Of a DNA stretch of 12,876 bases, positions 518-12,464 are shown in pieces. Within the stretch, counting starts at the first letter, position 1; each line of letters opens with the position of its first letter. Position numbers and translations under genes: made by a program. The DNA is from Strigomonas culicis (taxonomy: Eukaryota > Euglenozoa > Kinetoplastea > Trypanosomatida > Trypanosomatidae): assembly GCA_000482145.1 (NCBI GenBank), contig AUXH01000547.1, positions 1-12,876 of the forward strand. Direction: 5' to 3'. The notes below the pieces were generated by a model that saw only the letters and a list, made by a program, of their open reading frames with translations, ran no database searches and was not told the DNA's origin.

Positions 518-3501
518 ATGGACGAGACCAGTGCGGCCGCAGGAGAAGCTCCCCCCGCCGCGGCGGCGCTCGTGGCGGTGGTCATGCTGGAGCGGCCGGC
601 GCTGCTGCCCGGCGAGCCGCTCCGGGGCACCGTCACCATCACGGGCGACGCGCCGTGTCTTTCCCTCGCGCAGCAGCTGCAGACCGTCGAGGTGGTGCTC
701 TCGGGGAAGGAGTACGTGGCGACGTCCTTCGCCGCCGCGCAGCGCCGCAGCCACGCGCCACTCGCCGTCGCGCGCACGATGGATCTGAACGCGGCGCTGG
801 CACGCTGCATCCGTCACTACGAGGACGCGGCAGACGCCGTCTGCGTCCATGTGCAGGAGTCACTCGTGTGCTATCGCCACGGCGCGGATGCGGCGATGGA
901 CGCCGCGACGACGCGGCTGCAGCTCCCCTTTTCGTTTCAGATCCCCTCCCACTCACCTCCATCTTTTTATGTGCCCTTTGCGGGGGGGGCGGAGGGGGCC
1001 CAGCCGAGACGGAGGGACAAGGCGTGCACCCTGCTGTATTATCTACAAGTGCACGTGACACCGCGGAGGGACCCGCTGTGCCGCGCCGCCGCGCCGCCGC
1101 CGCCGCCGGCGGTGTACGCCCCGTTCCTGGTGCTTCCAGTGGGTCCCGCGGCCGCGCGGCGGCGCCCTACCCGCCTCGCCCTCGCCCCCCAGCCGCCGCA
1201 ACCGCCGCATGAGAAGGAGCGCGCGGGCGTTTTTGTGGTGTCCGGCGTACCGACCGTGGGGCAGGGTGTGAATGGGAATCGGGTGCGGAGGGAAGAGCGG
1301 GACGGCACCTCGAGTAGCACCGGGGGGCCGTGTCTCGACTCCGCGTCGTGCTCACGGTCATCCGTCTGGTTGGGTGCCGCCCCACTGCGTCTGGACAACC
1401 CTCCGCCGCCGCATGTCCGCACGACGGATCCTTCTTACTTTGACGGCTGGCGCACCCCGAGGCTCGAGCGCGATGGCGCGGACGCTGACGAGGCCCGCCA
1501 TCGCCGCGCGGCGACGCACGACAGGGGCACGGCGCCGCAGGCGATGTGGCAACGCCCGCACGCGGCGTCTCACGGGTGTGGTGGTGAAGGGGGGGAAGAA
1601 GGTGCGGAAGCGGAGGAGGAAAAAGTCAAAGGCATGAGCCGCACGCGTAAACGACGAACCGAACTGGAGAACGCTAACATTAGTACAAATGGCGGCAGCA
1701 GCATGCGTTCAAGCTTGGGGTTGTTCTTTTGTCTTGGCGGGGGGAAGAAGAAAATGGCCGCGAGCCTCGCCGAGCGGTGTTCCGAGCCGCTCACGAGCCC
1801 TCGCCAGGAGCTGCTGCGCTACTACCCGAGTAGGAACAAGGCAAGCCGCACCGACCCCGTCTCGCCTACCTCCTCCGCTGCCTCCTCCATCCCTTTGGAC
1901 GCGCGCCCGGCGCCAGCGGCCGCGGGGCAGGACGGCATCCACCCGGCGGACGAGGCCGCCGCACGCCACGCGAAACCGCCGCAGCAGCAGCTGCTGCCGC
2001 GCACGCCCGCCACCTCGTGCACTTCCGGCACGAGTGGCGGGCCCGGGTGGGGCGCCGCGGCGCCGTCTCCGCTCGTCGCCATGACTGTCTGTCCGCACGT
2101 GGTGGCGGTGGGCACGGCGGCCCCGCGCGATGGCTACGCCCACCTCACGACCCTCTTCGTGGCCGCGAGCGCGGCCGCCGGCCCGCGCCACCCTCACGCC
2201 GGCCGGCCGAGCGCGCTCACCGAGGCGCAGCTGGCGTGGCTGCAGCGGTACAACGACACCGCGGCGGCGGCGGCCGGCGGCGACGGGGCGGATGCCGGCG
2301 CGCCCGCGCCAGAGCACAGCGTGGCCGTCTGCGGGACGCTTATGCACCAACCACCGCGGCCGCAGCAGAAGCCGCGCGCCTCGAAAGGGAGAGAGACGGT
2401 GGTGATGGCCGGCGTCGGGCTCGAGGTCCTGCAGTGCATCACCGTGCGCGGCGACGGCGGAGACCGAAAAGGGGAAAAAAGGAAGAAGAAGCGGGTGCGG
2501 AATGTCACGGGGATGGACCGCCTTTGGCGCAGCCACCGCCGCACCGCAGCCGCGACCTCAGCACGGAGCTGCTCGCGTCGACCTCCGCCGCGGATGCGCC
2601 GCCCGCCATCGCACGTGCGATGGCGGCGGCCGGCGCCTGCCGCAGTATACAGGCGACGCGGTATCTCCACCACGGCCTCCACCCCACACTGAGCAGCGCG
2701 CACGGTGAAAAGGGTAAGACGAGAAGTAGGAGCGCGGGTACGGCGCACTCGGTGCAGTTGCGACTGCCGTCCGGGGGGCTGCCGCCGCAGGGCTCGCACA
2801 CGTTTGAGGTCGCGGTGCACTGCGCGGCGCAGCTGCGGCTGTACGACCCGCTCTTGCTGCTGCTGCTCGACCCGCGGAACCTCAGTGCCGTCTACTATTT
2901 GCAGGAGCAGCAGCAGGAGCAGCCCGGCCACGCCGTACTCGACGCAAGGGCCACGCGCGCGACGCAGCTGATCCTCTTCTACCTCGAGAGCAAGGAGGAG
3001 CGCAAGGTGCTGCCGACCGTCGCCGCGAGGTTTCTGACGTCCACCGTGCTGCTGGTGCTGCGCGCCTCCTATGACACGCAGCGCCACCTCGCAAAGAAGA
3101 AGAAGGAAGCGAAAAGGCAAAGAAAAAAGAGCCGCGCGCATGCAGTGACGGAGACCGCTTTACTGTATCTCACCAGCGACGACGCTTGCAGCGCGGCAGG
3201 GGATGCGAACCGCAGCAGCAGCAGCAACAGTAGCGGTAGCCAGTTTTTGCTCGGCAACAAAGACAACCGTCTCCATGATGACTGCCGCCACCTTGACAGT
3301 GCGACGGTAGTAGATGCCAAGGGAGAGCGACGGGCGATGCACCGCGGTGGATGGGTGCAACAGGAAACGATCATCGTGGAGAACCCTTTCCTTTTGGTGT
3401 ACTCCGGCCATCCCAACACACAAGAACAATCATTGGTGTCAGCACCAGCAACAACATGTGAGATCAATGCTGGTGATGTATGGATGAATACGAAATGCTG
3501 A
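518..3501 (+). CDS. arrestin-like protein, reading frame interrupted by one frameshift
   Basis: Probable arrestin-fold adaptor, a family that links membrane cargo to ubiquitination and trafficking. The first frame runs 518-2692 (724 codons if read straight). Arrestin-N-like features are LLPGEPLRGTVTITG near residues 29-43, VEVVLSGKE soon after, LPFSFQIP..PPSFY at about 136-151, and the beta-rich LLYYLQVHV at 172-180. A long low-complexity middle follows, rich in Pro/Ala/Gly/Ser/Arg, with basic Lys clusters. After about 2462-2546 the plausible protein continues in the -1 frame to TGA at 3499-3501; with one base restored the product would be about 994 residues. ATG 518 is the first in-frame start before the conserved region. 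No canonical PPxY motif of alpha-arrestins is seen. A Vps26-like protein is an alternative. Whether the break is a sequencing error or a real mutation cannot be decided here. Confidence 0.7.
2462..2546 (+). other. frameshift zone in the arrestin-like gene
   Basis: The 5' frame has G/C-rich third positions up to about 2460, then passes through a purine tract (A4 at 2467, G4 at 2471, A6 at 2475, then GGAAGAAGAAG) and degrades into Arg/His/Thr-rich shadow-like sequence that stops at 2692. The -1 frame has plausible codons from about 2490 and clearly from 2545 (RDLSTELLASTSAADAPP). The change matches one missing base, most easily in the A or G homopolymers. The 0-frame codons here (AAA GGG GAA AAA AGG) do not form a canonical X XXY YYZ slippery site, so programmed frameshifting is less likely. 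Confidence 0.7.
2479..3501 (+). CDS. C-terminal portion of the arrestin-like protein in the shifted frame
   Basis: This frame is open from upstream of 2017 but looks coding only from about 2490 onward. It contains LRLPSGGLPPQGSHTFEVAV and a Leu-rich beta-like segment (LRLYDPLLLLLLDPRN), consistent with the C-terminal half of an arrestin fold, then a Gln/Glu run. A strongly basic cluster at 3088-3135 (KKKKEAKRQRKKSR) may be a nuclear signal or an acidic-lipid contact. The final ~110 residues are Ser/Asn-rich and come from visibly less GC-rich DNA. It ends with TGA at 3499. There is no spacer, polypyrimidine tract or convincing start before it, so it is read as the continuation of the gene starting at 518. 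The exact left boundary is uncertain. Confidence 0.6.
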   Translation, partial: KEEEAGAECHGDGPPLAQPPPHRSRDLSTELLASTSAADAPPAIARAMAAAGACRSIQATRYLHHGLHPTLSSAHGEKGKTRSRSAGTAHSVQLRLPSGGLPPQGSHTFEVAVHCAAQLRLYDPLLLLLLDPRNLSAVYYLQEQQQEQPGHAVLDARATRATQLILFYLESKEERKVLPTVAARFLTSTVLLVLRASYDTQRHLAKKKKEAKRQRKKSRAHAVTETALLYLTSDDACSAAGDANRSSSSNSSGSQFLLGNKDNRLHDDCRHLDSATVVDAKGERRAMHRGGWVQQETIIVENPFLLVYSGHPNTQEQSLVSAPATTCEINAGDVWMNTKC

Positions 3502-4040
3502 ATTGTGTTATGTTCCACAAAGAAAAAAGAACAATTATTAATTTGTCTCCAAAGGAAATATAAAAAGCGCTTTTCCAAAGCAGTTTTCTCTGTTTATTTT
3601 AAATACATAATTTTGGTTGTTGTTCTATTTTTTCGACTCTCTTTACATGGTACCTATATATTCAATAAGAGAGAGAGACTAGAAGCTCTATAACCAGAAC
3701 AGCAAAAAAAAAAAAAAGGTTCATATATACCTGTTTTTTAAAACATTACAACATCAAAAGTTTATCGTTATTTGTCTCTTTTTTTATATATCTTCTCTAT
3801 TATGTTGCACTCCAAAAAGAAAAAGGATCACTTTTTACTTTTACTCTTCCTGTATAATTTGGACATTCGAAAGTAAAAAAAAAAATCAAAGGGGCATTAT
3901 TTCTATAATAATCAACATAACCCACAGTATTATTGCTGCTGTCCCTTCGTATCTTTTTTTTTCTCCCTTCTTAGTCTTTACACAGCTTTTTTTTTTCTTG
4001 TCGATCACAGAAAAAAAAAAAAAGAAGTAAAAAAAAGGTA
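3502..4040. other. AT-rich intergenic spacer between the arrestin-like and BCS1-like genes
   Basis: No supported gene. It contains several A and T homopolymers (for example the A run near 3704-3717 and T runs near 3953-3961) and three ATGs, all before 3804; 3804-4040 is free of ATG on the + strand. It should hold the 3' UTR of the arrestin-like gene and the 5' UTR of the gene at 4041. The open frame at 3505-3693 is AT-rich and lacks coding character. Confidence 0.7.
3953..4010 (+). promoter_or_regulatory. candidate polypyrimidine tract and SL acceptor for the BCS1-like gene
   Basis: Pyrimidine tracts at 3953-3972 and 3986-4000 are followed by AGs at 3973-3974, 3984-3985 and 4009-4010. The last (CACAG at 4006-4010) is directly followed by an A-rich stretch and would give a 5' UTR of only 30 nt, with no ATG before the start at 4041. 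Acceptor assignment is inferred from general trypanosomatid rules. Confidence 0.55.
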
Positions 4041-7678: not shown

Positions 7679-9388
7679 ATGTTCCGTAGACAGACCCCAT
7701 GGTCGCAGCGCTTCGCCCCAACTAAAACGGTACACCGTGCTGGACCGGCACCCCGCACACGATGGTGGCTCCCCCGCGCAGTGGCGGTGACGGCCCTCGT
7801 GGCGGCTGGCACGTGTGGTTGCATCGCTGCTGCCGGCACGCCGCGTCGGTGGGCGTGGCCGCAGCCCGGCTGGGGCGCCCTCTCCCTACCGGTCGCGGAG
7901 GCACAGGAGGCGGATCGAAATAGCTCTACGGAGGAGGAGGCGGCTGGCCACGCCATCGCAGACATCCCCAAGGACCTCCGCACCCGCTTCTTGCGCTACG
8001 CCCGTCTCGAGAAGCGGACGAAGAAAAACGCCCGCACCGGCGAGGAGGTGGAAGAGAGTGAATATGTCCTCCACCTCAACGATTTCATCGCCTGTGTGCT
8101 GCTGCTGCCGCCGACCCGCGACGCACGGCAGCACCAGCAACAGCGGCTCTTTGCCCCACATACGCAGGAGCGTCTCAAGCTCATCTTTGCGTACATCGAC
8201 ATGGACCGCAGCAACACCATCAACTACGCGGAGTTCGTCGTGCTCTTCACCATGCTGTCGACGCGGCAGCGCATATTTCACAAGGCCTTTCTGATGTTCA
8301 GCGATGACGACGACGGCCACCACGCGGCCACGCATCACAAGCTGCACCGCGCGCAGTTCATCCGGCTGCTGAACACCCTCATGGTGGACCCGGATGTCCA
8401 GATCGTCCAGGACGCGGCGGCCGCCGCCGCCGCGCCCTCCCGCGCGTGGCGCCGCGGCGGGCCCGGCCGCGGGCAGCTCACCCTCACCCTCCGCGCGGAG
8501 GACGTCGACCGCTTTCTCTTCGCGGAGCTGCCACTGCACGTCGCGGCGCCGCCCGGCTCCTCCCACGCGCCACTACATGCCCACACGAGCCAGGGGCCGC
8601 GGCGGTGGTGGCGCGACGCGCGCTACGAGGTGGGCTACGCGGCGCGGTACCTCTGCACCTTCGTCGGCGCGGCGCCGGGCGGCAGCGCAGCCACCTTCTA
8701 CGACCGGCTGACCCGTGGCGAGCGGCGGACGCTGCTGCGGCAGCAGCGGCGGACGCGCGCGCACGTCCAGCGGCTCCAGCGCGCCGCAGCGGCCGAGGCG
8801 GTGGAGCGGCGCATCAGCTTCGACGTCTTTTGGTACCGCATGGACTTTCTGCGGTGGGAGCTGCGCGCGGTCGAGTTCAGCGTCTTCGACGCGCAGAACA
8901 CGGGAAAGATCCGCTTCGGCGATTTTGCACGGCTGCTGTCGGCAGACCGCCGTCGCGCGGCGCGCTCCGCCTACGACGACGCCTACGTGTCGTGGCACTT
9001 TTATCAGGCCGTGTTCGACATTATCCGCGTGGCGGACCAGATCCTGCCGGCGCTGACGCTCGCGCTGCGGGCGCTGCCGCCGGCCCCCACGGGGGAGGCG
9101 GCATCGACCACGCTCACCCGCGCGCAGTTCTTTCACGTCCTGCACGCGATGGAGGAGGTGCCGCGGCTCGCCTCCCGGGAGGAGGAGGAGCTGTTCTTTG
9201 AGCTCGTCAAGGACCCGGAGCCGGCGGCGCGGCCGGACGGTGCGGCACCGGGCGACATCACACCGCAGGTGTTCGCGCAGGTGTGCGAGCTGCGACGGTC
9301 CTTCTTCGCTCTCTATCTGCCGCGCTTCACGGAGCCGCCCCGCAACACCGTCCAGCAGTTCTTCTACTGTATGCAGCAGGTAGAGTGA
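7679..9388 (+). CDS. MICU-like EF-hand regulator of the mitochondrial calcium uniporter
   Basis: 569 residues. The N-terminus is rich in Arg, Trp and Ala and almost lacks acidic residues up to a hydrophobic stretch at about 34-53 (AVAVTALVAAGTCGCIAAAG), fitting mitochondrial import and an inner-membrane anchor. A MICU-type helix (DLRTRFLRYARLE) precedes the first EF-hand, DMDRSNTINYAE at 174-185, with canonical ligands and Glu at position 12. LSTRQRIFHKAFLMFSDDDDG resembles the conserved MICU block after EF1. The distal EF-hand, DAQNTGKIRFGD at 404-415, is degenerate (Gln, Lys and Arg at ligand positions, Asp at 12). Two cysteines, C536 and C564, lie near the C-terminus, where human MICU1 and MICU2 pair by disulfide. 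MICU proteins gate MCU on the intermembrane side. ATG 7679 is chosen; GTG at 7673 is not a credible eukaryotic start. MICU1 versus MICU2 type is not resolved; a generic mitochondrial EF-hand protein is the alternative. Confidence 0.75.
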   Translation: MFRRQTPWSQRFAPTKTVHRAGPAPRTRWWLPRAVAVTALVAAGTCGCIAAAGTPRRWAWPQPGWGALSLPVAEAQEADRNSSTEEEAAGHAIADIPKDLRTRFLRYARLEKRTKKNARTGEEVEESEYVLHLNDFIACVLLLPPTRDARQHQQQRLFAPHTQERLKLIFAYIDMDRSNTINYAEFVVLFTMLSTRQRIFHKAFLMFSDDDDGHHAATHHKLHRAQFIRLLNTLMVDPDVQIVQDAAAAAAAPSRAWRRGGPGRGQLTLTLRAEDVDRFLFAELPLHVAAPPGSSHAPLHAHTSQGPRRWWRDARYEVGYAARYLCTFVGAAPGGSAATFYDRLTRGERRTLLRQQRRTRAHVQRLQRAAAAEAVERRISFDVFWYRMDFLRWELRAVEFSVFDAQNTGKIRFGDFARLLSADRRRAARSAYDDAYVSWHFYQAVFDIIRVADQILPALTLALRALPPAPTGEAASTTLTRAQFFHVLHAMEEVPRLASREEEELFFELVKDPEPAARPDGAAPGDITPQVFAQVCELRRSFFALYLPRFTEPPRNTVQQFFYCMQQVE

Positions 9389-9647
9389 GAAGGAGGGGGG
9401 AGGGGTGCGCCGCATCCGAGATGCAGGTGTGGTGTTGTCGTTGTTGTTGTCGTTGTTTGTGTGTGTGTGTGTGTGTTTTGATTGGTTTGCCTATTCTACT
9501 TGGAATTGTGTTGTTGGTTTGTGTATATGTCTGTATTCTGTATGATATAGTCACCTTCTATATTTTATATGTATATTCGTGTCATTATGGTTCTTATCTG
9601 CATCTTCTCTCTCTCTCTCTCTCTTTCCCGTTCCCTCTCTCTTTCAG
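9389..9647. other. probable 3' UTR of the MICU-like gene with (TG)n and (CT)n tracts
   Basis: A T/G-rich stretch after TGA 9386-9388 carries a (TG)9 run at 9458-9475 and four ATGs (9421, 9542, 9569, 9587). It ends in a pyrimidine tract with (CT)9 at 9607-9624 leading to TTTCAG at 9642-9647. TG-rich 3' regions followed by polypyrimidine tracts are typical of trypanosomatid spacers, where polyadenylation of the upstream mRNA is coupled to the next trans-splice site. Confidence 0.6.
9605..9647 (+). promoter_or_regulatory. strong candidate SL acceptor, distal 5' end of the kinase mRNA
   Basis: A 40-base, nearly pure C/T tract including (CT)9 ends in TTTCAG (AG at 9646-9647) and is followed immediately by A-rich sequence. 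It is the best-formed polypyrimidine/AG signal in this spacer. It lies only 259 bp after the MICU-like stop but 1272 nt before the kinase ATG at 10920. The + strand contains no ATG from 9590 to the kinase start, so an mRNA beginning here would have a very long, AUG-free leader. Confidence 0.55.
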
Positions 9648-10077
9648 AAACAATAATCAATAAAAAAAAAAGAAGAAGAAGAAAGGTCCAACCGTAGATT
9701 TCATTCCTCTTCTTCTTTTTTCTCTTTCATCTCTTTTTTTTTTATTCCTCCTCCTTTTGACACTCCTTCTTTAGTTTTGACTTGCACATATTCGTATTAG
9801 TACAAAGAAACATAAAAAAAGATTGTTACTGTTATACATATTTAGTTGAAGTTTTTATTTTGATCTTTTTTTTCTCGGAAAGAAGTTCTTTTTGCGTTGT
9901 CTTTTTTTATTATTATTCTCCTTTTCTCGCATTTTGTTTTGCTTTTTGATTTTCTTGCTTTAAAGCTCTTTTTTTTTTTCAGAAAAGCTTTATATATATA
10001 TTATACTTTATTCTTTTTCTTTTCAGTTTCCCTTTTTTTTTTCTGTCTTCCCTAAATTTTTGTTCCTTTTTTTTTTC

Positions 10078-10108
<31 letters not shown>

Positions 10109-10109
10109 G
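10078..10109. repeat. (TTG)n trinucleotide run
   Basis: About ten tandem TTG/TGT units lie directly after T-rich sequence in the long spacer before the kinase. It is a simple repeat. If transcribed it would form a U/G-rich element, a kind of sequence bound by several trypanosomatid RNA-binding proteins, but no such role can be shown here. Confidence 0.85.
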
Positions 10110-10740
10110 CTTGTTTGCTTTCTCATTTTTGTTTTGCCTACGTCTTGATAAAACTCACAACTTGTAGATATTGCAATAATTATATATACATATAATTGTT
10201 TATTCTTGTTGTTCTCTGTTTCTAGGGTAAACTGTTATTCTTCCAGATACCCTTCATCTTTTCCAGTACTAAAAAGTGTTTTAGCAAAGAAAACAGAGAT
10301 AGTGGTATTCGGTAGGATACGAAAAAAACATTTAAAAAAAAAGAGTAAATAGTAACAACACTTCAGTTTACAAGACACGATTAGAAACAACAGTAAAAAA
10401 AGAGGGAAGTGAGTAGCTGTAAGACGTAAAAAAAAAAAACGGTGAACCTTCTGAACGTTTCAAGGCAAAAAAAAAAAAGAAATAGTATTAATTTTTTATA
10501 TATATATATTCCTATATATATACTCCTCACACAGATATAAGGTAACACGGAAGGGATACAAAGTAAAGGAAAAAAAATTTGAAACGTACACCGTAAAAAA
10601 AGGGAAAGTAAAAAGTACTTCCAAAACCTTAACCTTACACATTTTTCCCTACCATTGAGATTGCAACGTTTTAATTAATATACACGTAAAAAAAAAAAAC
10701 ATTTTATATCACTTTCTTTTTTTTTCTTTGTATTGTTTTT

Positions 10741-10845
10741 TATTCCCGTTTTTTTAATTAATTTTACTTTTCGATTTTTTTTTAGTTTCGTTCTGTTTTC
10801 TTGTTCCTGTGGTTGTTTTATTTTTGTTTTTTTTTTGTTTTTGAG
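10741..10845 (+). promoter_or_regulatory. proximal candidate SL acceptors for the NEK-like kinase
   Basis: T-rich tracts lead to TTTAG at 10781-10785 and, after a second tract, TTGAG at 10841-10845. These would give 5' UTRs of about 134 and 74 nt, normal for trypanosomatids. There is no ATG between either site and 10920. They compete with the upstream sites at 9647, 9982, 10026 and 10225; the sequence alone cannot tell which dominates. Confidence 0.45.
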
Positions 10846-10919
10846 GCTTTTTGTTTTCCTACTTCAAAAAAAAAAAAACTAAATACTTGTAACTGTAATT
10901 ATCCTTACGGTGTCACGCG

Positions 10920-12464
10920 ATGGAAGGAGCAACGAGTCCACCCATGTATCCGATGGACCCATGCGTGGCGCAGCCCCCGCTCGCTAAGTACGATCGCATC
11001 TCGTCTAACGCAAACACCATTACGCATAACAGTAGCACACACACTAGCAACCTCAACAGTAGTCTTGTCCAGCCGGTCAACGCCGCTGCCAGTGCCGATG
11101 GCGGCGGTGGCGGTGGCGGAGGCGGCGGCGGAGGCGGCGGTCGCACCAGTGGCGGCCTCGCCCTCAACAACAGTAGTGGCAATTACTTGTCTGATCATAG
11201 CAGCACGACCAACGCGAGCGACCACGTGCGGCGCCGCACGGGGAGCACCTACTGTCTGGACGACGCGAATGGCAACGCGATTAGCAACACGATTAACACG
11301 AGAGCCTCCGGCGATGGGAGCCCCCTGCACCAGCCACAGCAGCACTACGTGTCACCGCTCATCACGAGCTTTCCGAACATTGTGGGGCCGCAGCCGCCTT
11401 TTCGCTACCGCCCGCGTCGACCGATCGGCCGTGGTGCCTACAGTACCGTGTGGTCGCTCACCAGCAACGAGACGAACCAGGTGGTGGTGGGCAAGCTCTC
11501 GGACCTCGCCGTGATGTCCGAGGCGAACCGCAACTTTGCGCGGAGCGAGGCGGCCAACATCCGTGCGTGCAACCACCCGAACATTATAAAGCTCATCGAG
11601 ACCTTCGAGAGCGGTGACAAGCTGCTGCACATCCTAGAGTACGCAGACGCCGGCGATCTTTACAACCAAGTGGAGCTCCGCGCGCGTCACAACGCACAGA
11701 ACACGGAGCGGCAGCCGGTTTTTTATCAAGAGAACGAGATTCTGGTCATTCTCTCGCAGCTCTTTCTAGCGGTCCAGTACATCCACGATCGGCGCATCCT
11801 CCACCGCGATCTCAAGACGCCCAACGTGATGCTCATGAAACATGGCCTCATCAAGCTCGGTGATTTTGGGTTCTCGCGACAGTACGAAGAGAGTGTGTCG
11901 ACGAACGTCGGAAACACCTTCTGCGGGACGCCCTACTACCTGGCGCCGGAGCTCTGGCAGCGGCAGCCGTACAGCTACAAGGCTGAGATCTGGTCGCTCG
12001 GTGTCATCGCCTACGAGCTCATGATGCTGCAAAAACCCTTCCCGGCGCACGACTTCAACGACCTCATGCAGCGCGTCTGTCGCGAGCGCAGCTATCTGCC
12101 GATCCCTGCCGACCGCTACTCGCCACAGCTCATCCACCTCGTAGAGTACATGCTGCGCGTCGACCCCAATAGGCGGCCGAACATCAAGCAGGTGCTGGCC
12201 GCGCCCATCATGCAGCAGAAGGGGCTGCCGCTGCTGAAGATCAACGTCCGGCGGCTGCGCAACCTGGACCCCGCCATCTGTGCGCAGCTCGTCGCGGAGG
12301 TGGACTACACGCTTGCACAGGCGGCCGCCGCCGCGCCCACGGAGGAGAGCTTCGCGGCGGCCAACGCCGGTCCGCCGGCCGCGCCGGCGTGCGCGCCGCG
12401 TAGTGCTCTGCCCGTCCCAGCCCCCGCCGTAGCGGTGGCAGCGTCTAACAGAGGGAAGCGGTAG
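10920..12464 (+). CDS. NEK-like serine/threonine protein kinase
   Basis: 514 residues. The first ~160 are a disordered Ser/Asn/Thr-rich extension with a 14-Gly run (61-74). The kinase domain spans about 164-430: glycine loop GRGAYSTVW (170-178), ATP-binding Lys192, alpha-C Glu210, catalytic loop HRDLKTPN (295-302, Asp297), DFG at 315-317, and activation/P+1 loop CGTPYYLAPE ending at Glu344. HRDLKTPN followed by CGTPYYLAPE and YxxKxxIWSLG is typical of NEK kinases, a large family in trypanosomatids linked to cilia/flagella, basal bodies and the cell cycle. The invariant alpha-F Asp (usually SDIWSLG) is Glu356 here. All catalytic residues are present, so it should be active. The C-terminus is Ala/Pro-rich and ends with tandem stops TAG TAA (12462-12467). 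ATG 10920 is the first ATG after a 1.3 kb ATG-free stretch, with an in-frame TAA at 10896. Kinase identity is secure; the NEK subfamily less so. Confidence 0.87.
   Translation: MEGATSPPMYPMDPCVAQPPLAKYDRISSNANTITHNSSTHTSNLNSSLVQPVNAAASADGGGGGGGGGGGGGGRTSGGLALNNSSGNYLSDHSSTTNASDHVRRRTGSTYCLDDANGNAISNTINTRASGDGSPLHQPQQHYVSPLITSFPNIVGPQPPFRYRPRRPIGRGAYSTVWSLTSNETNQVVVGKLSDLAVMSEANRNFARSEAANIRACNHPNIIKLIETFESGDKLLHILEYADAGDLYNQVELRARHNAQNTERQPVFYQENEILVILSQLFLAVQYIHDRRILHRDLKTPNVMLMKHGLIKLGDFGFSRQYEESVSTNVGNTFCGTPYYLAPELWQRQPYSYKAEIWSLGVIAYELMMLQKPFPAHDFNDLMQRVCRERSYLPIPADRYSPQLIHLVEYMLRVDPNRRPNIKQVLAAPIMQQKGLPLLKINVRRLRNLDPAICAQLVAEVDYTLAQAAAAAPTEESFAAANAGPPAAPACAPRSALPVPAPAVAVAASNRGKR
11100..11141 (+). 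repeat. GGN codon run encoding polyglycine
   Basis: Fourteen consecutive glycine codons (mostly GGC, some GGT and GGA) encode Gly61-Gly74 in the N-terminal extension of the kinase. The mixed codons suggest an older or selected tract rather than a pure slippage repeat. It is probably a flexible linker. Confidence 0.9.

Follow-up and report, generated by a model that had tools for sequence, protein, structure and literature searches.

Why does a stretch of more than 1.3 kb upstream of a protein kinase gene contain not one ATG on the coding strand? The stretch lies in a 12,876-nt piece of Strigomonas culicis DNA (contig AUXH01000547.1 of assembly GCA_000482145.1, referred to here, at its full length, as the window), between a gene for an EF-hand protein and the kinase gene. 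Our preferred reading, which we consider moderately likely, is that the kinase mRNA has a trans-spliced 5' leader of 1.1 to 1.3 kb from which upstream AUGs have been removed by selection. From the DNA we infer three further things: use of the acceptor, a stable and translated transcript, and purifying selection as the cause of the loss.

The kinase gene, its neighbors, and its start codon

The kinase gene (10920 to 12464, + strand) encodes a 514-amino-acid protein with a Pkinase match (E = 3.1e-60) and orthologues in other trypanosomatids, and the motifs HRDLKT and GDFG of the kinase domain are invariant across 10 aligned sequences. Among named relatives, the best is that of Angomonas deanei, which shares 69% identity over 65% of the query; Novymonas, Leptomonas, and Leishmania come next. 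We call the protein NEK-like from its protein kinase domain together with the labels of some relatives, namely, a NEK-family label in T. cruzi and NEK1_4_5 labels in KEGG. The predicted protein begins MEGATSP, similar to MECATAP in Leptomonas seymouri, and the sequence from 10953 to the kinase domain contains no in-frame ATG; 10920, in the context GCG-ATG-G, is therefore a reasonable and plausible start. Out-of-frame ATGs follow at 10961, 11098, 11269, and 11314, the first within 41 nt. The N-terminal extension (10920 to 11345) is of low complexity, rich in Asn, Ser, Thr, and Gly, with a run of 14 glycines, and reaches about 110 to 140 residues beyond the Angomonas, Leptomonas, and Leishmania orthologues.

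The gene upstream (7679 to 9388, + strand) encodes a 569-amino-acid EF-hand protein (Pfam EF-hand_1, E = 1.4e-6). Its putative 3' UTR would span 9389 to 9590 on the + strand, the end being set by the acceptor tract that follows, and these roughly 200 nt contain five ATGs, at 9421, 9527, 9542, 9569, and 9587. The other + strand genes of the window are ORFs of 724 and 293 amino acids, both without a Pfam match, and an AAA ATPase gene. The 724-amino-acid ORF (518 to 2692) runs at its end into the 293-amino-acid ORF (2620 to 3501), which is in a different frame; the open frame of the latter reaches back at least to 2431, and beyond about 2460 the former looks off-frame and rich in arginine. Probably, 518 to 3501 is a single gene carrying either a frame change or an assembly error.

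ATG counts in the spacer and in the sampled genome

The original prediction held that no + strand ATG lies between the one at 9587 to 9589 and the kinase start, that CAT occurs there about 14 times and GAT and TGA about a dozen times each, and that base composition does not account for the absence. Direct counting confirmed the first two points: 9588 to 10919 holds 0 ATG, 14 CAT, 14 GAT, and 12 TGA, and the last + strand ATG before the kinase start is at 9587 to 9589. The ATG-to-ATG run that ends at the kinase start is 1,333 nt, the longest in the window, where the next is 451 nt and the longest CAT-free run is 532 nt. The third point was upheld by dinucleotide-preserving shuffles, the check that had been proposed. 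Shuffling of the whole region gave an expectation of 9.9 +/- 2.8 ATGs, with 0 of 2,000 shuffles ATG-free (Poisson probability, 5e-5), and shuffling within local 111-nt blocks gave 7.9, again with 0 of 2,000 ATG-free; CAT was seen 14 times against 12.0 expected. Composition-matched real spacer windows from the same genome (14 windows, 1,260 nt covered) gave 14.8 expected ATGs and a product of zero probabilities of 1e-7, which is optimistic because the pool windows overlap. Most of the signal comes from the middle of the stretch, since the probability of zero ATGs is lowest there (0.0015 for 10101 to 10785, compared with 0.03 for 9588 to 10100 and 0.44 for 10786 to 10919).

ATG is not alone in being scarce. 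Against dinucleotide shuffles, AAT, TAA, and TTA are depleted as strongly or more so (z = -5.1, -3.8, and -3.4, versus -3.4 for ATG), with 17, 31, and 37 copies remaining, a skew that seems partly due to homopolymer and TA tracts. With simple tracts masked, G follows the AT dinucleotide in 0 of 61 cases in the stretch versus 23% in background spacers. At about 10078 to 10110, inside the predicted leader, lies a (TTG)n run in which one base change per unit would create ATG, and none is present. Chance or base composition as a full explanation is disfavored by the global, local-block, and matched-window nulls. Before one given gene a chance stretch of this kind is unlikely, and less so somewhere in the whole genome. 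By our arithmetic chance would produce about 0.1 such cases, given about 7,000 spacers, of which 4 in 99 are long enough (kinase spacer included), and a probability of about 4e-4 each, the Poisson value for the block-shuffle expectation of 7.9.

The background consisted of three contigs, 250 kb of the 17.7-Mb assembly (670 contigs), plus the window, and comprised 103 same-strand spacers, three of them from the window. Genes were called mechanically as ORFs of at least 120 amino acids with an excess of third-position G+C, and the start was taken as the first in-frame ATG, so that by construction no in-frame ATG can stand between the preceding stop and the start; for the kinase this part amounts to 7 codons (an open frame of 521 versus 514 amino acids). 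Four of the 103 spacers, one of them at 2693 to 4040 of the window, were left out of the depletion and tract-composition counts as possibly coding, and three without a qualifying tract-AG pair were left out of the leader-length predictions.

Upstream of the other starts (98 spacers, kinase excluded), ATG loss is confined to the nearest 100 nt, where 34 ATGs were found against 98.9 expected; the counts were 50 against 50.0 from 100 to 150 nt and 661 against 597.8 beyond, and CAT showed no matching loss upstream of starts in the sampled spacers. More than 150 nt from a start, the ATG density of sampled spacers is 14.7 to 16.7 per kb, close to the one per 50 to 60 bases of the original prediction. 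Because the loss is confined to this zone, the usual 5' leader in this genome would be about 100 nt long, and the kinase leader would be about tenfold longer; the median predicted leader in the sampled spacers is 125 nt. Sequence that would be 3' UTR, upstream of predicted acceptors, shows no ATG depletion (observed/expected, 1.05). Leaders of great length look uncommon in this genome. Eleven other spacers with a predicted leader of more than 400 nt hold 103 ATGs in those leaders against 103.6 expected (0.99), one of the 11 being free of ATG, and with a C-weighted predictor (96 spacers) the two others with leaders of more than 600 nt hold 11 and 25. Either simple acceptor predictions fail in these cases or long leaders here tolerate AUGs.

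Measured by the ATG-free gap before the start, the kinase spacer ranks first of 103 (1,330 nt; next, 683 and 597 nt; median, 162 nt) and remains first among 99 once the four suspected-coding spacers are dropped; in spacer length (1,531 nt) it ranks third of 103. The longest CAT-free run within any sampled spacer is 446 nt. By the number of ATGs expected in the gap, the lead over the runner-up is only modest (8.7 versus 6.9). That runner-up is spacer C2:98508-99527, whose final 353 nt are without ATG. The 683-nt gap (C19:67003-68168) precedes a NIF-type phosphatase gene, and the 597-nt gap (C2:42560-43704), which begins near the best polypyrimidine tract of its spacer, precedes a gene without a Pfam match. 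When the kinase spacer was shuffled with its proximal 100 nt fixed, a gap of 1,330 nt arose in 0 of 20,000 shuffles and one of at least 1,000 nt in a fraction of 0.0001, the 95th percentile being 491 nt. Gaps of at least 330 nt were seen in 11 other spacers, against 4.2 by shuffling with 100 nt fixed and 7.4 with 200 nt fixed, and gaps of at least 500 nt in 2, against 0.27 and 0.62, so that the excess of long AUG-free gaps in the sampled genome is at most small. No functional theme emerged among long-gap genes, because only one of the four scanned genes with gaps of at least 427 nt (4 of the 11 others with gaps of at least 330 nt) had a Pfam match, the NIF phosphatase.

Candidate acceptors and competing accounts of the spacer

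The kinase spacer contains 8 tract-AG pairs (5.2 per kb, versus a median of 4.7). The predicted main trans-splice acceptor (9591 to 9647, + strand) consists of a C-rich polypyrimidine tract at 9591 to 9645 (42% C; score, 41, second best in the spacer) followed by CAG; a single nucleotide separates the tract from the last ATG, and the acceptor would give an AUG-free leader of 1,272 nt (9648 to 10919, + strand). A second candidate (9699 to 9774, + strand; TAG, with the AG at 9773-9774) has the highest score in the spacer (49.5), also tops the C-weighted score, contains 28% C, and would give a leader of 1,145 nt. Candidate internal acceptors have AGs ending at 9982 and 10026 (9966 to 10026, + strand), with a further AG after a tract at 10225, and T-rich start-proximal tracts (10712 to 10845, + strand) have AGs ending at 10785 and 10845 that could serve a short leader. 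Positions 10025, 10264, and 10265, which miss the true AG by one or two bases, are not counted as acceptors. The right edge of the ATG-free run is the kinase start and its left edge is the C-rich tract with CAG, which supports the reading of the stretch as a leader. In sequence terms, the predicted leader has at its 5' end the polypyrimidine tract and AG of a trans-spliced leader, and its shortfall of AUG against dinucleotide expectation is restricted to the sense strand, as in an AUG-depleted 5' UTR. In 102 spacers, kinase included, last ATGs lie closer to the top tracts than uniform placement predicts (Kolmogorov-Smirnov P = 1e-4 for the top tract and 3e-4 for the top two), under a null that ignores the clustering of both last ATGs and tracts near starts. 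A search of the assembly for the spliced-leader gene with three exon patterns gave 0 matches each; the actual exon may differ from these patterns, and tandem arrays may be absent from the assembly.

In the preferred reading, the kinase mRNA leader would begin at the acceptor near 9647 (or at 9774), selection would strip upstream start codons from it, leaving the kinase AUG as the place where scanning ribosomes initiate; the simplest mechanism would be ordinary scanning to the first AUG, the kinase's own. An AUG-free leader would result from any of the candidate acceptors between 9647 and 10845, and therefore the kinase frame could be reached from any of them. A doubtful extension of this idea is that several acceptors spread over 1.1 kb are in use and that AUGs have been cleared from the whole so that leader length may vary, for example, with life stage, without ever creating an upstream ORF (uORF).

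How long the leader is depends on which acceptor is used, and the ATG counts bear on this. If the leader were only 74 to 134 nt long, starting from 10845 or 10785, most of 9389 to 10700 would be 3' UTR of the EF-hand gene, and this T- and A-rich low-complexity DNA would lack ATG by chance. We regard this as unlikely, though not negligibly so: start-proximal tracts with AG do exist, the length would match the median predicted leader, proximal acceptors are reportedly preferred (PMC6597758), and the genome-wide figure of about 0.1 chance cases leaves some room for it. Against it, 0 of 3,000 block shuffles of 9588 to 10785 were ATG-free (7.6 expected), and 3' UTR sequence upstream of predicted acceptors is elsewhere not depleted. 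The tracts themselves point the same way, with C fractions of 0.14, 0.15, and 0.0 that fall at the 0 to 3rd percentile of 98 near-start tracts, though also at the 0 to 9th of 93 distant ones. Near-start tracts in the sample average 31% C versus 29% for distant ones, a small difference (P = 0.019), and by its C content the 9591 tract fits either group (87th percentile of near-start and 86th of distant tracts); tract composition, scored without ATG counts, would thus favor a distal acceptor by a modest margin, roughly threefold. The likelihood of zero ATGs is 193-fold (residual upstream ATG rate, 0.34) to 1,132-fold (rate, 0.1) higher for an acceptor at 9647 than for one at 10785, and 139 to 849 times higher for 9774, with 2 to 3 ATGs still predicted over a long leader at the rate of 0.34. 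Combined with a prior for a kilobase leader that we estimate at 1 in 50 to 1 in 100, these ratios put a leader of more than 0.9 kb ahead by at least a few to one.

A leader of 650 to 950 nt, spliced between 9965 and about 10266, with the T-rich upstream part ATG-free through composition, would draw on the AGs that follow tracts and end at 9982, 10026, and 10225. Only 1.8 to 2.9 ATGs are expected from 9588 to 9982-10167, and acceptors at 9965 to 10167 have a likelihood 35 to 61 times that of a 134-nt leader (residual rate, 0.34). Acceptors at 10225 and beyond gain just 4- to 11-fold, however, the tracts at 9852 to 9980 are 12 to 20% C, and the account does not explain why the last ATG coincides with the 9591 tract. 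We judge it improbable. We give very little credence to the idea that a noncoding RNA transcribed separately, or some other element, occupies part of 9648 to 10700 and has an acceptor of its own. The length of the spacer (third of 103) and its 8 tract-AG pairs speak for this, though the pairs occur at near-median density. Against it, no ATG-initiated + strand protein can begin inside the stretch, and a noncoding RNA gives no reason for ATG loss. Moreover, an Rfam search of the stretch gave no match at the gathering threshold, a tRNA search found none, folding of the stretch is not unusual (z from -1.5 to +1.6 in 13 overlapping 150-nt windows), and the sole second copy in a DNA search of the genome is a 54-nt match at the TTG repeat, on contig C338.

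The original prediction had joined strand-specific loss of upstream AUGs to a 5' UTR of about 1.27 kb, and this remains, as a prediction, the best-supported reading, given the rank of the gap, its edges, and the depletion rule. The further suggestion of translational or stability control found no support in the folding or Rfam searches. A k-mer model of 5' versus 3' UTRs gave no useful separation in leave-one-out trials. A uORF-regulated leader needs at least one upstream AUG and 9588 to 10919 has none; this absence speaks for scanning without obstruction, not for control by uORFs.

Upstream AUGs in known leaders and in the predicted kinase leader

Upstream AUG depletion in 5' UTRs has been described in 473 of 478 eukaryotic species, in the part of PMC7889888 considered here, with AUG below expectation upstream of the coding sequence, as in the kinase spacer. 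There, depletion is stronger within 100 nt of the coding sequence than farther away, whereas in the kinase stretch it is complete over 1.3 kb, far past the zone of about 100 nt seen in this genome. Long trypanosomatid leaders are likewise known. Median 5' UTR lengths are given as 32 to 47 nt in T. brucei (PMC2916883), 127 nt in T. congolense (PMC6084854), and 242 nt in Leishmania mexicana (PMC4599935), and spliced-leader trapping in T. brucei is described as placing 5' UTRs of more than 2 kb on 153 to 198 genes per life stage (PMC2916883). The description of the kinase leader as very long for a trypanosomatid thus needs qualifying: leaders longer still exist in T. brucei, and what is odd is zero AUG at such a length.

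In a review (PMC6597758, in the portion bearing on acceptor choice), the tract nearest the initiator AUG is said to be usually preferred, and a figure (3e) depicts an extended 5' UTR produced by use of the upstream one of two acceptors. The kinase spacer resembles this case in having several tract-AG pairs and in the predicted use of a distal acceptor to give a long leader; according to the review, extended leaders that have an AUG and an open frame are poorly translated, whereas the kinase leader would contain no AUG. Similarly, the uORF-bearing trypanosome leaders covered in the relevant passages of PMC6084854 and PMC2916883 are long and trans-spliced with alternative acceptors, like the kinase candidate, but gain uORFs with length (r = 0.88 between leader length and uORF number in T. 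congolense; PMC6084854), and the kinase candidate has 0. Judged against these sources, what stands out is the combination of kilobase length with zero AUG, since uORF number normally grows with leader length.

Such a leader raises the question of what maintains its length, given that long trypanosome leaders usually collect uORFs. If several acceptors are indeed in use, leader-based control would be decoupled from uORF repression. If the leader is real, the constraint on upstream AUGs marks the 5' end of an mRNA from DNA alone, and the distance from a start codon back to the last ATG, compared with the background ATG density, could serve for rough estimates of 5' UTR length in trypanosomatid genomes without RNA data.
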